Assembly (NCBI RefSeq): GCF_019175385.1
Contig: NC_083348.1
Span: forward strand, 49,436,950 to 49,500,949
Direction: 5' to 3'
DNA: 64,000 nucleotides
From: Lycium barbarum
Taxonomy: Eukaryota; Streptophyta; Magnoliopsida; Solanales; Solanaceae
The position numbers and the translations under genes were made by a program. Below are positions 11,282 through 41,960 of this stretch, piece after piece. The notes beneath the pieces were generated by a model, which was not told where the DNA came from, ran no database searches, and was given only the letters and a program-made list of their open reading frames with translations. Each line of letters begins with the position of its first letter. The stretch's first letter is position 1.

Positions 11282-11321
11282 CCTGTTTATAGATGTGGTG
11301 CACAACACATCGATAAACAAG
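11282..11321 (-). ncRNA. Leader hairpin with GTGCAC loop (DIS-like), element A
   Basis: On the minus strand, cttgtttatcgatgtg (11321-11306) pairs with cacatctataaacagg (11297-11282), 15 of 16 positions. The 8-nt loop TTGTGCAC contains the self-complementary hexamer GTGCAC. It starts 41 nt downstream of the PBS and is followed by the conserved gctacagggcatttagga. The form matches retroviral dimerization initiation sites; function in this element is inferred. Confidence 0.7.
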
Positions 11322-14841: not shown

Positions 14842-14853
14842 TAGTATCAGAGT
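14842..14853 (+). other. Decayed primer-binding site of element C
   Basis: tagtatcagagt, one mismatch from tggtatcagagt, lies three bases inside the LTR end. It is consistent with an initiator-tRNA-Met primer that has since mutated. Confidence 0.7.
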
Positions 14854-17800
14854 CTTAGGTTACCAGGTCTATAAGTACAGGAGCATGCCTAGTAGAGTCT
14901 TGTGGATCAGTATGATGTGCTTCATACTTATCTGCGAGAGGCTATAGGACATTTAGGAAACTTCCATTTCTTCCACTCCTTCATGCTGCTTCATTTGAAT
15001 AGGTATGATGAGCTCTGTACTTATCTGCGAGAGGCTATAGGACATTTAAAAAACCTCCATTCCTTCGTGCTACTTCATTTGAATAGGTATCTAGTCGATT
15101 CCAATTGGTATCTGAATGTCTTTGTCTTATTCTCTCATGAATGGTGGAAACTTATACATAAGTTATTATGCGAATGGTTTTGTTATGACCAGGCTTGGTA
15201 TGATACGAGATATGTTGTCCTGATTCGAATGCGTTACCAAGTTCAGTTTCTAGCAATAGCTTGAGGTTTCAGTTATGTGGGATCGTGGTTAGACTCGTTT
15301 ATTATGAGGATTTCGGGTGAAATAGGAAAGATGGTGCAAATGGTCAAATGATCTCCATGTTTTCAGCGTTGGGTTGCTCAGAAGTGGCAAAAGTGAATTT
15401 ATGGCTTAACCATAGTGACTTGGTCAATTATATGATTAGTTTTGGGAAAAGTTTCAACTTCGTCAAGGCAATATGATGGTGTGTGTGGCACGGTTGTACA
15501 TATGGCAGGTCAACGATTCATCAGTGCCAGGGTATTAGATGTCGATATGAGGGGACGAGTGTAAGTTTGGTAAGGATCATCGTATTTGGCAACATTACAG
15601 TGATCACATGTAATAAGATGCGAGGTTGAGAATAAGGAATTGAAAGATGACTTTTGTGGGAAACGTGTAGCGAAGTAAGATTTCTTAAGGTATTTTGGTA
15701 TGAGTTCTTTTCGTGATAATGGGACACAGGCATAAGGAAGAGGATTTGGATAGATTAATATCCATTATTAGGAAGGGAACAATTGGTATCTGATGTGCTC
15801 GTCAAGATAAGGTTGCAATTTGTACGAGAGTGGATTTCGTATTCGGTCATGAAAAGTCAAGTTCGGCTTCGACGTGACTATATGGTAGTGGTTTGTGAGT
15901 TCTTCTAGAACATTAGTTATCAGTTCTAGATCAAAAATCAAGGTTACTTGTGATGAGAGAAGACTTAAGATATTTGGCAGTTGTGGTCCTTGTACTTCAG
16001 TAAGGGTGTGTTCACCGGATCTTCGTGTTAGAGGAATGGTTAAGATATAGTGGAATCAAGAGCTAGTTGATTTGAGTGTTATGTTGAGGTCATACTTGGT
16101 AGAATAGACATAAGGGTTCAATGATGAGGTTTGAATAAATTTGAGTTGTGGAGAACATTTCAGAATTTGAGTTAAGGGAGCTCTAATGCATAGAGTATGT
16201 GGCCTACTACTATCTTCATGATTGACTCGGCTAGTTTACAAGACTTAAGATTATGCGGTATTCTATTGAGTGGGTTCGAGAAATGGTTAAATGGTGACAA
16301 TGATTGTGATTTGATTAGAAGTTGAGGAATTGAAAAATTAAGAAAAGGTATAGTTGATTGAGAATCGACAAGAATGAGGTACATCTTCGGGATTACTTGG
16401 GTCATTATGGATTATGGTGTTTTTTTCTTTCATATTTCAGATAGGGTGTGATTGTTGAGTACGCTTAAAGAAGAAAGTGTACAGAAATGGACTAAGTGAT
16501 ATGACAGTGTTCCCCAGGGGTTCGTGATCAGCAACTAGTGAAAAGCAAATTTTAGGTACACAACATGATAAGGCTTATGGAAGTGGCTTGTGTGGTAAGC
16601 AATTTGGTAAATTCGTAACACTTTTCAGTGGATAAGTTAGTGTGGTTTAAGGGAAGGGGAGTATGGAAATCCTATCTATGTGAGGGCTACAGTCATATTT
16701 TTCTAGATGAGACCATATTCGTGGTAGCGTATTCTGTTGCAAGTATTACTGACTGCTAGCTTGGCTGAGCACTGTTGGGTATTAAGGACTTGGGAGCAGT
16801 TGCTAGAGGTTTAGAGCAGTGGTTCTAAGAATTGATACTTTCAGAATTTTTATGGACATATCGAGGTGTTGCAACGGGAGATTCTATGGGTAAAGGGGTA
16901 TTATATGAGGCTATAGGTTTTGCATCGAAAGGTTCGGGGTGTATCAGATTTGTGTATCAAGTGAAGGTTGATAAATATGAAGATTGCGAATAAAATGTAT
17001 AGTTCTTCGGTACTAAGTTGCCAACTTGGGTAGGTCTCAGCTTTTGGAATCGAAGGTTATAGACATGATTGATTATACGTGAGGAAAAGATAAAAATTGA
17101 CCGCCACTGATGTGTGGTAGGACTGTGATTGGTTTAAAAAAATTGGGATCTGTTTGGGTGGCTATTGACGGTATTCAGAGGTTATGCATTCATTCCAAGT
17201 CAGGATTGTTTGATTAGAACTTGATAGACTGTGCCTATATTTCCAAAAGGACATATGGATTCCCAGTGAATCACCTTCACGGGTTTGATGAGTTTCAGTT
17301 CAGATTTGAGGTATGACAGGTGTACCAATCTTTATCAAGGTTTAAGAATGGACTTGATGTTATTTTACTGAGAGCAGCTATTCTGATAGGTATAATGGAT
17401 TACATCGACACTTGGTAAGGATTCCAGGAGGAACCATGGTTGCGAGAGGTCTTTAGAGTAATTAGATGGTTTCCTACGGACTTGGCCCTGTGGGGTACTC
17501 AGTGGTATGCCTCCTGTATTGTGATTTGAAGGTCTAAGATGACTTAGGACTAGCGAAGTCAGCTATGAGTTAGATCAGTTTGATAGAATTGCTTAGAGTT
17601 GCTCCGATAAAGCAGGAATTCCTTTCTGGCAAGAGAAAGTCATGGTTTCGGGCTTGTATTTTTGTGTTTCTAAGAAATCGCGGTGCGAAGAGTGCCTTTA
17701 GAAGTGTGAAAGAAAGGTTAATGGAATCAAAATATTTTACCAGTTCAGAGTGGGTTATCATTGTGTCTAAATCTATAAGTTTGTGCTGTTTTGACGAATG

Positions 17801-20193: not shown

Positions 20194-20205
20194 TGGTATC
20201 AGAGC
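20194..20205 (+). other. Primer-binding site of element E
   Basis: tggtatcagagc, two bases after the LTR end, is a perfect 12-base match to the 3' end of initiator tRNA-Met, the usual primer of Copia elements. Confidence 0.85.
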
Positions 20206-20247
20206 GGGTTCTTTCTAAACGGTTAACACCTAGAAAGGATCCTCTTC

Positions 20248-23043: not shown

Positions 23044-23083
23044 CTTGTTTATAGGTGTGAAGCATGCCACACTAATAAATAGG
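23044..23083 (+). ncRNA. Leader hairpin with GCATGC loop (DIS-like), element B
   Basis: cttgtttataggtgtg (23044-23059) pairs with cacactaataaatagg (23068-23083), with G-U pairs and one A-A mismatch. The 8-nt loop AAGCATGC ends in the self-complementary hexamer GCATGC. It begins 42 nt after the PBS. Loop and stem differ from A, F and G but keep the same geometry. Confidence 0.7.
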
Positions 23084-29553: not shown

Positions 29554-29593
29554 CTTGTTTATAAATGTGGTGCACAACACATCGATAAACAAG
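29554..29593 (-). ncRNA. Leader hairpin with GTGCAC loop (DIS-like), element G
   Basis: On the minus strand, cttgtttatcgatgtg (29593-29578) pairs with cacatttataaacaag (29569-29554), 15 of 16 positions including one G-U. The 8-nt loop TTGTGCAC contains GTGCAC. It starts 42 nt after the PBS. Confidence 0.7.
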
Positions 29594-34512: not shown

Positions 34513-34590
<78 letters not shown>

Positions 34591-34776
34591 ATTATTTTGC
34601 AAGCCTAAGGTTTCGTATGTATAAAAGCATTTCATTTCTAAATAAAAATGGATTTTATTATAAATTAAGCATGAATCGGATAAATGATTGCTAAATAAGC
34701 TTAATAAGTGATGGCACGAGCGGTGCTCGGTGGTTAGCCCCGGGTACCCGTCACTGCCCCTAGCTGGGTCGTGACA
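33145..34776 (+). mobile_element. Element F, 5' LTR (right part)
   Basis: Continues the F LTR after element G to ggtcgtgaca at 34776. It contains G/C-rich imperfect repeats caccgcgcctatatggccgg with cactgctaatgtgggctgc (33905-34060), the hairpin pair cagtac/gtactg and acgtcc/ggacgt (34282-34324) and acceptor-like atgcccatag/gtagacagg ending at 34340. The F 3' LTR lacks 517 bp of this region. Confidence 0.9.
34513..34590 (+). repeat. (TA)n(GT)n microsatellite in F 5' LTR
   Basis: About 29 TA repeats are followed by 10 GT repeats. The matching site in the F 3' LTR (41749-41768) has only about 10 TA and almost no GT. The open frames crossing it are low-complexity artefacts. Confidence 0.95.
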
Positions 34777-34780
34777 AAAG

Positions 34781-34792
34781 TGGTATCAGAGC
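34781..34792 (+). other. Primer-binding site of element F
   Basis: tggtatcagagc, a perfect 12-base match to the 3' end of initiator tRNA-Met, four bases after the LTR. Confidence 0.93.
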
Positions 34793-34835
34793 AGTTCGGT
34801 CCTAGGAAGTGTCTACGAGCCGTGTCTAGTAGAGT

Positions 34836-34874
34836 CTTGTTTATGGTGTGTTGCGCGCCACATCAATAAACAGG
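34836..34874 (+). ncRNA. Leader hairpin with GCGCGC loop (DIS-like), element F
   Basis: cttgtttatggtgtg (34836-34850) pairs with cacatcaataaacagg (34859-34874) with one bulged A and G-U pairs. The 8-nt loop TTGCGCGC ends in the self-complementary GCGCGC. It begins 43 nt after the PBS. A smaller stem just upstream (tctac at 34812 with gtaga at 34829) is shared with A and G. The conserved gctacagggcatttaggaa follows. Confidence 0.72.
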
Positions 34875-34980
34875 AGGCTACAGGGCATTTAGGAAAAATG
34901 ACCATCTTTCTTCTATGAGATCGTGCGATAGAGCCGTGTATACGATGTTATCCTCCCTAATAGTGTGTTATGATTTCAGA

Positions 34981-36346
34981 ATGCCGCCAAAGGGAAAAGC
35001 TGTAGCCGCCCAGAAGGGTAAGACTATGGCAAGGAGGCGGGTAGAAAGAGAGCCTTCAGTGAATGTAGAGGAAGGCGAATCACACAACGAGGCCTTGTCA
35101 AATACTTCTTCTACCCCGCCCGATGTGGGAGAGCAAGGAGGAGCCCCAACTCTAATTCCTCCGCCGGCTGCTTCGGGTCAACAAATGACCGAGGCTATTC
35201 ATTTATTGACCCAATTGGTTACTGCACAGGCACAATGACAAAATGTGGGTTCAAGTGATCGGGCAGCAAGTACAAAGGCCCGTGATTTTATGAGTCTAAA
35301 TCCCCCAGAATTCTTCGGGTCAAAGCCGGAGGAAGACCCACAAGGTTTTATTGATGGAATATTGAGGACATTGAAGATTGTCCATGCCTCCGAAACCGAA
35401 TCCGTGGAGTTGGCATCCTATAGACTCCGGGATGTGGCGGTGTTATGGTACAACAATTGGGTGTTATCAAGAGGGGAGAATGTGCCTCCTCCGGTTTGGC
35501 AAGAGTTCGTAGATGCTTTCATTTGCCACTATTTTCCACCCGAGGTCCGCCGAGCTAGAGCGGATAGATTTATGAATTTGAGACAGGGAAGCATGAGTGC
35601 CCGGGAGTATAGCATGCAATTCAATTCTTTGGCTAGATATGCTCCGACTATGATGGCCGACATGGGAGATCGGGTACATAGATTTGTGAGTGGTCTGGGA
35701 CCGCATTTATTTAGAGATTTTTTGATGGCTTCCTTGCAAGACGAGATGGACATTTCCCGGATACATGCCCATGCTCAGAATTTAGAGGGGCGACAACGAC
35801 AACAAAGGGGCGATCGCGACAATGATAGGAGGCAAAACAAAAGGGCTAGATCTGAGGGAATAAGTGGTGATTATAGAGGGGGATCGAGGCAGGCTTATTC
35901 CCGACATTCAGGCCAGTCAGCGACTAGTGCACCTCCCCGGTTCGCAGACAGGGGATTTGATCGCTCTTTTCCGTCGGGACAGGGTCAGAGCTCGAGAGTT
36001 CCGGGTTCTCAGTTTGGGGGTGATTACAGTCAGAGACGACCGCCAGTTCCACGATGTAGTCGATGTCGCAAATTACATTCAGGGTCGTGTCGTCAGGACA
36101 CTGATGGTTGTTATGTTTGTGGGAAGACTCGACAATTGATGCGAGATTGTACCTCGCGATATGGTATAAGTGGGGTTCAGTCCACAGGCTCAGCAGCGGG
36201 TTCCTCATCAGCACGCCCCGTAGGGCAGACTTCTCAGATGATAGCAGGCCGAGGCAGAGGCCGAGGGGCAGCATCTACTTCGGGTGCCACTCAGCCCCGT
36301 GTATATGCTTTAGCGGGACGACAGGATCTCGAGTCCTCTCCGGATG
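34981..36346 (+). pseudogene. gag: F gag and nucleocapsid region
   Basis: The N-terminal acidic/Pro-rich part ends at the first TGA (35236). The gag domain follows ([45 protein letters not shown]; about residues 105-250 of the whole frame). The nucleocapsid has [12 protein letters not shown], then [14 protein letters not shown], in which the zinc-binding His of the CCHC knuckle is Gln (CAA near 36136), so zinc binding is probably lost. A Gly/Arg-rich linker leads into protease. Confidence 0.85.
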
Positions 36347-39978: not shown

Positions 39979-41960
39979 TGTTACACCTTGGAAATATCCC
40001 CCGCTAGCCTACAGTGATTAGGCCAATGAAGGGATGACGTATATGGTGTTTTGACGAGAGACAACATCCTTTAGACTGGTAGTGAGGTGCTAAATAATTG
40101 TTAAGAAGGTTCCATAAGGATCGGAGATCAAACGAAATGACGAGAATAAGACTCAGTAAACTGATGGGTTATACGGTCAATTACACAGACCGTATAACAT
40201 TATACGGCCGCATAATGAACCGTAAAAGAGTCACAGAATGAGGCAGAATGAGGTTGCTGAAGGGATGATTTTACGGTCAATTATACGGACCGTATAAAAT
40301 TATACGACCCGTATAATGTACCGTCAAGTTGACACAGGAAAAGGGTAGTCATTGGAATAGTTTTACGGTCCATTATACGGACCGTATAATGGACCGTATA
40401 ATGATGTCGGGACAGATTTCAATTTTTAAATAAGGACCCAAGTTCATTTTATCTTATTTCATCTTTTCTCTCCACGACCCAACATCTCTCTAGAACCTTC
40501 CAAAACTCTTCCAATACAAGAATTCAAGTGAAAATCAAGATCAACCACACCAAGTTCATGAAAACAAGAGTGTGAAACCCAAGTAAAGTTCATCCTCCTC
40601 AAAGAAAACCAAAAGAGGTGAGATAGGGTTTTGTTGCTAGAGGAGAAACTCCACTCAAGACCTGCTCAACCATCATCCAAGGTAAGTTTCATGACCATTT
40701 TATGTTGTTTAGGGTATTGGAAGGTTAAGATACCTAAACTGTAGAAGAACATAGCAAATGGGTCATTCAAGAGTGATGACAATGAGCTAGAGTCTAGAGA
40801 CTCAAGAAATTGTGGCATGATGTTCTTACAATGCTAATGATGCTATTATTGTTAACACTCGCCTTACGTTTTCTTCCCTTCAAGGCGAGGCATGATACTC
40901 ATAAATGTCCATAATACAATCGGGGATTCACGACCTTACGTCACCCCGACATAGTATGATTGTCTTAAAGCCTAATGAATGCTCTTAATGCTAATGTATG
41001 TTATGACAATAATATGATAAGAAATGCTAACTTGTAACACTATGGGATACATGGAACACTAAGAAATGATAACATGATGATATGGCTTGAGATGTATAAT
41101 AATGACGGGTTATGATTGATGTTGTGATTATAAGATTCCACCGGGCCTATATGGCCGGGCATGTCACCGCTAATGCGGGCTGCGTATGATTCCACCGCGC
41201 CTATATGGTCAGGCATGTATCGCTAATACGGGTTGCAATGTTTACACCGAGCCGAGAGGGCCGGGCATGATCACTACTAGTGGGCGGCATATGAGCGTTA
41301 CCCGGACGCGGGTAACGATACAGATTATGATGTGATGAGGTATATGATGACGTACGTGATGATGTATGGGATGTGATAACATGGGTACAATGATTGTGTA
41401 AAATGTGAAATATGATAGTAATACGATTGCCTATGACATGTGTGCAGGTTATATCTTTGTCCCATGACTCATGATCTTTCTATTATGTTTGTTTATTTCA
41501 TTCCTGCCTTACATACTCAGTACAATATTCGTACTGATGTCCTTTTTCTATGGACGTTGTGTTCATGCCCACAGTAGACAGGGAGGAGATCTTGCTCCGG
41601 ATTCTTAGAGGCTGCTAGCTGATTGGAAGCCTTCCATTGTCCGTAGGTGCCTATGATGATTCTTTTGTGTACAGTTGTAGGTGTCATCTCTTAGAGGCCC
41701 GTAGATACTCGACGTGGGTCGTGTGGTTTCATGGCATGGTCATCGTGTATATATATATATATATATATGGGTATATTATTTTGCTAGCCTAAGGGCTCGT
41801 ATTTATAAAAGCATTTCGTTTCTAAATAAAAATGGATTTTATTATAAATTAAGCATGAATCGGATAAATGATTGCTAAATAAGCTTAATAAGAGATGGCA
41901 CGAGCGGTGCTCAGTGGTTAACCCCGAGTACCCATCACGGCCCCTAGCTGGGTCGTGACA
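39979..41960 (+). mobile_element. Element F, 3' LTR
   Basis: Starts TGTTACACCTTGG and ends ggtcgtgaca. The shared parts differ from the 5' LTR by a few percent. It lacks 517 bp (counterpart 24167-24283 plus 33145-33544), joined at the shared agtga (40772-40776). Donor-like caag/gtaagttt is at 40682 and acceptor-like ttcatgcccacag ends at 41574. The outside bases aaaaa against gaaaa (23344-23348) give a target duplication with one mismatch. Confidence 0.9.

Follow-up and report, generated by a model that had tools for sequence, protein, structure and literature searches.

Loop-loop dimerization is known from retroviruses, and the loop of the SL1 hairpin of HIV-1 has nine nucleotides, with purines on both sides of the palindrome. 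Passages of PMC5874298 name three loop sequences as prevalent in HIV-1 (GCGCGC, GUGCAC and GUGCGC) and call the loop diversity rather limited; an earlier note on the DNA analysed here had rightly described two of these three, GCGCGC and GTGCAC, as common in HIV-1. For the yeast element Ty3, sections of PMC11381356 report six palindromes, three in the 5' UTR and three in gag, and deletion of PAL6 (CUGCAG, nucleotides 391-396) stops dimerization in vitro. In plants, the portions of PMC3735527 drawn on here deal with BARE1 and BARE2 of barley, an LTR element with a Gag-less relative that is packaged by its partner, and mention conserved dimerization and packaging signals for BARE. Retroviral SL1 appears as background only in the relevant parts of PMC3902901, a paper on plant LTR elements, while the parts of PMC4918200 (retrozymes) and PMC3350952 (plant chromodomains) that were used contain nothing on such a hairpin.

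The window, i.e. the whole 64,000-nucleotide stretch of Lycium barbarum DNA that was analysed, contains several Ty3/gypsy leaders with a hairpin shortly after the primer binding site (PBS). Element F has its PBS at 34781-34792 on the forward strand (TGGTATCAGAGC, which we take to be of the initiator-Met type) and its hairpin at 34836-34874 on the same strand, with the loop TTGCGCGC at 34851-34858. The corresponding hairpins are found in element A (11282-11321, reverse strand, loop TTGTGCAC at 11298-11305), element B (23044-23083, forward strand, loop AAGCATGC at 23060-23067) and element G (29554-29593, reverse strand, loop TTGTGCAC at 29570-29577). The earlier note had these coordinates and loops exactly, as re-reading of the sequence confirmed, and it had correctly placed the start of the stem 41-43 nucleotides past the PBS; counted from the 12-nt PBS, the distance is 41 (A), 42 (B), 43 (F) and 42 (G). 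The fold it proposed is borne out by RNAfold on 60-nt pieces, where all four hairpins have 16 base pairs: 10 bp are separated by a 1x1 mismatch, or in F by a bulge, from the 6 bp that close the 8-nt loop. The loop consists of TT or AA followed by GTGCAC (A and G), GCGCGC (F) or GCATGC (B), and the fifth pair counted from the loop is indeed A-U in A and G, G-U in F and G-C in B. Folding z-scores of the 60-nt pieces are -4.8 (F), -6.3 (A), -3.1 (B) and -5.3 (G), with 0, 0, 2 and 0 of 200 shuffles, respectively, folding equally well. The hairpin persists in 150-nt pieces, where the z-scores are weaker (F -1.7, A -3.3, B -1.5, G -2.4) and equally good folds are reached by 9 (F), 0 (A), 12 (B) and 2 (G) of 200 shuffles.

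Element F carries the domains Retrotrans_gag, RVP_2, RVT_1 and RT_RNaseH, corresponding to Ty3/gypsy gag, protease, reverse transcriptase (RT) and RNase H. A match to Chromo falls just under the Pfam threshold (E 2.3e-5, 24.7 bits against a cut-off of 25.1) and lies beside SH3_Tf2-1 at 1.8e-27; the integrase core is outside the ORFs given. The lineage is presumably that named Tekay/Del. Long AT dinucleotide tracts of unequal length are present at 34519-34570 and 41751-41770, apparently in both LTRs of F. In tblastn comparisons with the first reading frame of F, element A matches over residues 11-378 and element G over residues 6-389, ranges that take in gag and, of the protease match, the first 28-39 residues. 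No match was found in A or G to the RT, RNase H or C-terminal integrase pieces of F, the integrase core of F being outside the query pieces. The description of A and G as non-autonomous thus holds, and the hairpin is kept in these RT-less elements.

The claim that four families share the hairpin stands in so far as all four are real; however, a fifth leader, that of element C, had been missed, and the four cases are not four independent events, since the families are related, with leaders that can be aligned and gag 49-55% identical to that of F. Element C has a PBS-like site at 14842 with two mismatches, and a hairpin at 14899-14938 on the forward strand, the loop of which (ATGTGCTT at 14915-14922) is non-palindromic in the window copy. 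Its stem, CTTGTGGAT C AGTATG / CATACT T ATCTGCGAG, is unlike the others in its letters and paired except for the C/T mismatch. Genome copies that share the lower stem of element C carry GAGCTC in 64 of 98 cases. About 100 nt downstream of the first hairpin is a second one, a partial tandem copy at 15002-15031 (forward strand) with the palindromic loop ATGAGCTC at 15008-15015. Through this tandem duplication the leader of element C (14899-15050) has the hairpin twice, the palindrome being intact in the second copy, and a similar partial duplication of the hairpin is seen at locus L062. The flanks of the hairpin, TAGTAGAGT ... GGCTACAGGGCATTTAGGA (e.g. 34827-34835 and 34876-34894), are alike among families with different stems; some of these letters form a lower stem (GTAG/CTAC), and the remaining ones may be a candidate Gag site.

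Another hairpin of the window, with GTTAAC and a long stem directly after another PBS of the same type (hairpin 20206-20246, PBS at 20194), was rejected as a second example. Among the 40 listed of its 284 copies, GTTAAC is found in 17, TTTAAA in 1 and no palindrome in 22; the loop, as drawn from one pattern anchor to the other, has 13-14 nt. As the palindrome is kept inconsistently (18 of 40) and does not switch in the same way, this hairpin was not counted.

We consider it very probable, from the pattern of sequence variation described below, that in a large clade of plant Ty3/gypsy (chromovirus-like) elements the 5' leader RNA carries the hairpin as a kissing-loop dimerization element. The strength of this case comes from genome-wide data and not from the four window hairpins. 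All family data are from the one host genome, of 1.67 Gb. A census pattern composed only of the LTR end and the PBS, and hence blind to the hairpin, has 40,275 matches in this genome, and its reversed control has 0. The first 78 consecutive matches of the 40,275 were used as a sample (240-242 nt taken for 60, plus 18 others). When folds were selected purely on energy, a hairpin of 9 bp or more was present in 71 of the 78 leaders. The apical loop contains a palindromic hexamer in 56 of these 71, whereas shuffling of the loop letters predicts 4.4. The loop starts 47-72 nt past the PBS (57-72 nt in 70 of 71, and 57-60 or 65 nt in 58 of 71).

Eight hexamers recur: GTGCAC, GCGCGC, GCATGC, GAGCTC, GACGTC, GGGCCC, GGCGCC and GCCGGC. 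The last five, as well as TGATCA, which is found in two related copies (L315 and L348), were first met in the census. GGGCCC and GGCGCC belong to one family with a 7-nt loop, and L297 has GGCGCC in an 8-nt loop. The palindrome occupies the last six letters of the 8-nt loop (7 nt in the one family) and the inner six of a 9-nt loop, the latter being found in L315, with pyrimidines 5' of the hexamer. No palindrome is present in the minimum free energy loop of 15 of the 71 census hairpins, and some of the 71 are other folds, with loops of 3-5 nt in eight. Judged by eye, the seven places lacking a 9-bp hairpin comprise L292 and L301, which are other sequence, L325, which is of the TGACAACGTGG type, and L009, L345, L348 and L351, each of which has a palindrome at the expected position within a different fold. 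Loci of this type (L325, L327 and L329, 3 of the 78) have no comparable hairpin by eye; the TGACAACGTGG family has the PBS and a very short leader before the likely gag ATG.

The loop was further counted within families. When the two arms of one stem are fixed and 7-9 loop letters allowed, 4,228 matches are found in the genome. Of the first 100, all 100 have a loop of 8 nt and 70 are palindromic (GCGCGC 43, GCCGGC 16, GTGCAC 8, GCATGC 3); re-dealing the hexamer halves gives 33 on average, and 0 of 5,000 re-dealings reach 70. In the TTATATGTGTG-stem family, which mostly has a 7-nt loop, 42 of 58 places are palindromic (GGGCCC 26, GGCGCC 10, GCGCGC 5, GAGCTC 1), whereas re-dealing gives 18.5 on average and 0 of 5,000 re-dealings reach 42; these places were each read in the orientation with the extra letter 5', a choice that could slightly favour palindromes. 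This set was obtained by manually merging 100 rows into 62 places, since a palindromic place is matched on both strands; one place with a shortened arm was kept, and four of the 62 were set aside for changed loop length, as were two of 100 rows of the GTGGAT family. The latter is palindromic in 68 of 98 (GAGCTC 64, AAGCTT 2, GACGTC 2), and its excess by copies is weak owing to the dominance of one hexamer (61 on average after re-dealing, with 23 of 5,000 re-dealings reaching 68). A first list, chosen without regard to the loop, has 87 of 100 palindromic.

The earlier note had proposed that frequent non-palindromic loops among many family members would count against it. Such loops do occur, in about 30% of copies in three sets (30 of 100 fixed-stem loops, 16 of 58 TTATATGTGTG places and 30 of 98 GTGGAT loops) and in 13 of 100 of the first list, but they are mostly one step from a palindrome: 24 of the 30, 13 of the 16 and 25 of the 30, respectively, are one substitution from a palindrome seen at least twice. 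The substitution is C>T or G>A in 21 fixed-stem, 8 TTATATGTGTG and 19 GTGGAT loops, and 14 of the 21 fixed-stem changes are in a CpG. This would be the pattern of loop decay expected of methylated insertions, presumed old. By distinct hexamer type, there is no clear excess of palindromes (4 of 21 fixed-stem, 4 of 18 TTATATGTGTG and 3 of 17 GTGGAT types, counts reached by 1,517, 566 and 3,100 of 5,000 re-dealings, respectively); among types seen at least twice, palindromes make up 4 of 11, 3 of 4 and 3 of 6. The signal lies in abundance: palindromic types are the common ones, and most other types are rare.

Letters of the hexamer deviate less than those of the flank in A-like (2.1% against 8.4%) and F-like copies (7.2% against 12.5%), whereas the GTAC-stem clade shows the reverse (15.6% against 10.1%). 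GCGCGC and GCCGGC are two positions apart, both differences being transversions. On the fixed stem, 2,204 copies fall in the GCSSGC class, and only 7 of these are the rare one-step form GCGGGC (INTERMEDIATE); the other 2,197 comprise GCGCGC, GCCGGC and the other one-step form, GCCCGC, which is seen in 0 of the 100 listed fixed-stem rows. At C1:25236271-25264350, six hairpins of one family (five GCCGGC and one TCCGGC) lie about 5.2-5.7 kb apart on one strand, in what looks like a tandem array of one element.

A phylogenetic tree was built from about 1.1 kb downstream of the hairpin, mostly gag, for 75 of 93 leaders (88 loci and 5 from the window). At least 10 palindrome-to-palindrome changes are found on this tree, using five states, 62 labelled rows and hand-corrected labels, a number that is approximate given that the tree is a quick one with some long branches and without a shuffled-label control. 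Loops were set by hand for 18 of the 75 rows, with their presence in the sequence checked, and uncorrected labels gave 6 changes; 13 of the 75 rows are non-palindromic. The GCATGC of window element B and that of L057 and L058 are located in different parts of the tree. Between lineages, the hexamer moves from palindrome to palindrome, with GCGGGC at 7 against 2,197, in agreement with the earlier proposal that it changes yet stays palindromic.

It is very unlikely, in our view, that the hairpin serves some other role, such as translation, primer placement or Gag binding, and that its palindromes are simply inherited or reflect a quirk of copying, for example template switching at inverted repeats. 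The families do share a leader, so that the window cases are not independent, the lack of an excess by distinct hexamer type would fit, and reverse transcriptase can correct imperfect inverted repeats. However, such correction would centre on the stem's own dyad, which falls between letters 4 and 5 of the loop, whereas the dyad of the hexamer lies between letters 5 and 6 in the 8-nt loop, and half a letter off centre in the 7-nt loop. Inheritance, for its part, leaves unexplained both the palindrome-to-palindrome changes, at least 10 in number, and the rarity of the intermediate.

Covariation was assessed in a table of 156 distinct rows plus one reference, 157 in all, derived from 200 of 226 rows. 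The other 26, in which the cutting anchor is absent, were dropped (14 of the 78 leaders from the census and 12 of the 48 locus leaders), and in the 100 rows taken from the first list the first ten letters, including five stem letters, are fixed by the search. The hexamer is palindromic in 120 of the 156 distinct rows. Its positions 2 and 5 are complementary in 146 of 156 (94%, against 30% when re-dealt) and use all four Watson-Crick types (TA 51, CG 49, AT 38, GC 8), and positions 3 and 4 are complementary in 139 of 157 (89%, against 70%). Positions 1 and 6 show no clear covariation, being G-C in 138 of 156, with 38 of 1,000 shuffles as high. In line with the compensatory series described in the earlier note, changes in the stem are compensated: six of its 15 pairs (10-41, 11-40, 12-39, 16-35, 19-32 and 20-31) exceed all 1,000 re-dealings of the 3' letters, controls that do not remove the relatedness among copies. 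Pairs 8-43 and 17-34 were reached once in 1,000 re-dealings, and the others vary too little.

These data also bear on the idea that the palindrome works in DNA, as a twofold-symmetric protein site or as a cruciform in the untranslated region of a transposon. Palindromic hexamers are common DNA sites, and we take GACGTC to resemble bZIP cores. A protein site would, however, conserve its letters, whereas here the letters change and self-complementarity persists; the variation of the stem passes through G-U pairs, which points to RNA; and the loop stays at 8 nt throughout the 100 listed rows, even though 7-9 were allowed. Such DNA-level accounts fit less well, given this lack of letter conservation and the offset between the dyads of hexamer and stem, and we find them hardly credible. 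The least probable of the alternatives is that the loop pairs with another partner (a second hairpin of its own RNA, the 3' end or an RNA of the host) and is palindromic only incidentally: although copies were compared over the leader and about 1.1 kb downstream only, which leaves room for it, a non-self partner needs no self-complementarity, each of the eight recurring hexamers would need a matching partner, and a set that is all palindromic would go unexplained.

A kissing-loop dimerization site, by comparison, would account for what is seen in the sequences themselves: the hairpin, its place, its compensatory evolution and a self-complementarity that persists through sequence change. Two genomic RNAs would meet through six loop-loop Watson-Crick pairs, the kissing dimer would perhaps mature with Gag into an extended duplex, and the dimer would be the form that is packaged. 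The RT-less elements A and G would retain the hairpin because their own RNA, too, must form dimers and depends on trans-supplied enzymes for copying. Selection would act on self-complementarity and not on the letters, as appears when the loops are counted by copies, not by distinct types. The hairpin offers a specific target of about 40 nt, and natural variation among tens of thousands of copies amounts to a mutagenesis record that points to the property under selection. Plant Ty3/gypsy elements make up much of many plant genomes; the hairpin makes their dimerization, the co-packaging of non-autonomous elements and a possible sorting of families directly testable with short RNAs.

More tentatively, and less likely than not in our view, the hexamer could be a self-recognition code, by which families in one nucleus pair with themselves and mostly poorly with others. 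RNAs would then sort into separate dimers, limiting recombination and parasitism between families, and lineages would split when the code switches; A and G, with GTGCAC, would draw on helpers via Gag/Pol and not through joint dimers with F, which has GCGCGC. In RNAduplex calculations, made without loop constraints, self-pairing of nine hexamers ranges from -5.0 to -12.5 kcal/mol and cross-pairing is weaker. Six of the 36 cross pairs reach -5.0 or stronger, including GTGCAC/GCGCGC (-6.6) and GCGCGC/GGCGCC (-7.5), so these are partly compatible. GACGTC pairs with the other eight at 0.1 to -3.4.

Searches were also made outside the host genome. In viral contigs and prokaryote genomes, 111 and 92 stretches, respectively, fit the pattern; none has TGGTATCA within 90 nt upstream, and a hairpin with any palindromic loop is present in four, with 4-5 bp each. 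An RT query of viral contigs gave 6 stretches by pattern, with no confirmed relative. Rfam 15 has one match to window positions 34700-35100, at 11.9 bits against a cut-off of 70, and this lies off the hairpin. In the open-access full-text literature, covered partly through best-ranked matches only, no description of a dimerization or packaging RNA signal of plant Ty3/gypsy chromoviruses was found, and the hairpin in plant chromovirus leaders is apparently undescribed.

Compared with the systems described above, the plant hairpin resembles HIV-1 SL1 (in the account given in passages of PMC5874298) in being a single leader hairpin that lies 3' of the PBS and whose apical loop holds a GC-rich palindrome of 6 nt. 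It differs in that the loop has 8 nt, with two letters 5' of the palindrome and none 3', or 7 nt with one letter 5'; the 9-nt, purine-flanked loop that a homologue of SL1 should have was not seen among the 100 listed fixed-stem loops, all of them of 8 nt, and no homology to SL1 is claimed. Also unlike HIV-1, a single plant genome has eight recurring hexamers, including GCATGC, with A-U pairs at its centre. BARE1 and BARE2 differ in belonging to the Copia superfamily, and the passages of PMC3735527 drawn on here contain no loop palindrome or covariation. The DS/PAL6 of yeast Ty3 is likewise a 6-nt palindrome of a Ty3/gypsy element, apical in a short hairpin near the 5' end of the RNA (sections of PMC11381356). 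Going by the same sections, PAL6 is far downstream, apparently in the gag ORF, whereas the plant hairpin lies in the untranslated leader soon after the PBS, and the sequences differ. The plant hairpin suggests that retroviral-style loop-loop dimerization may be used widely among Ty3/gypsy elements.
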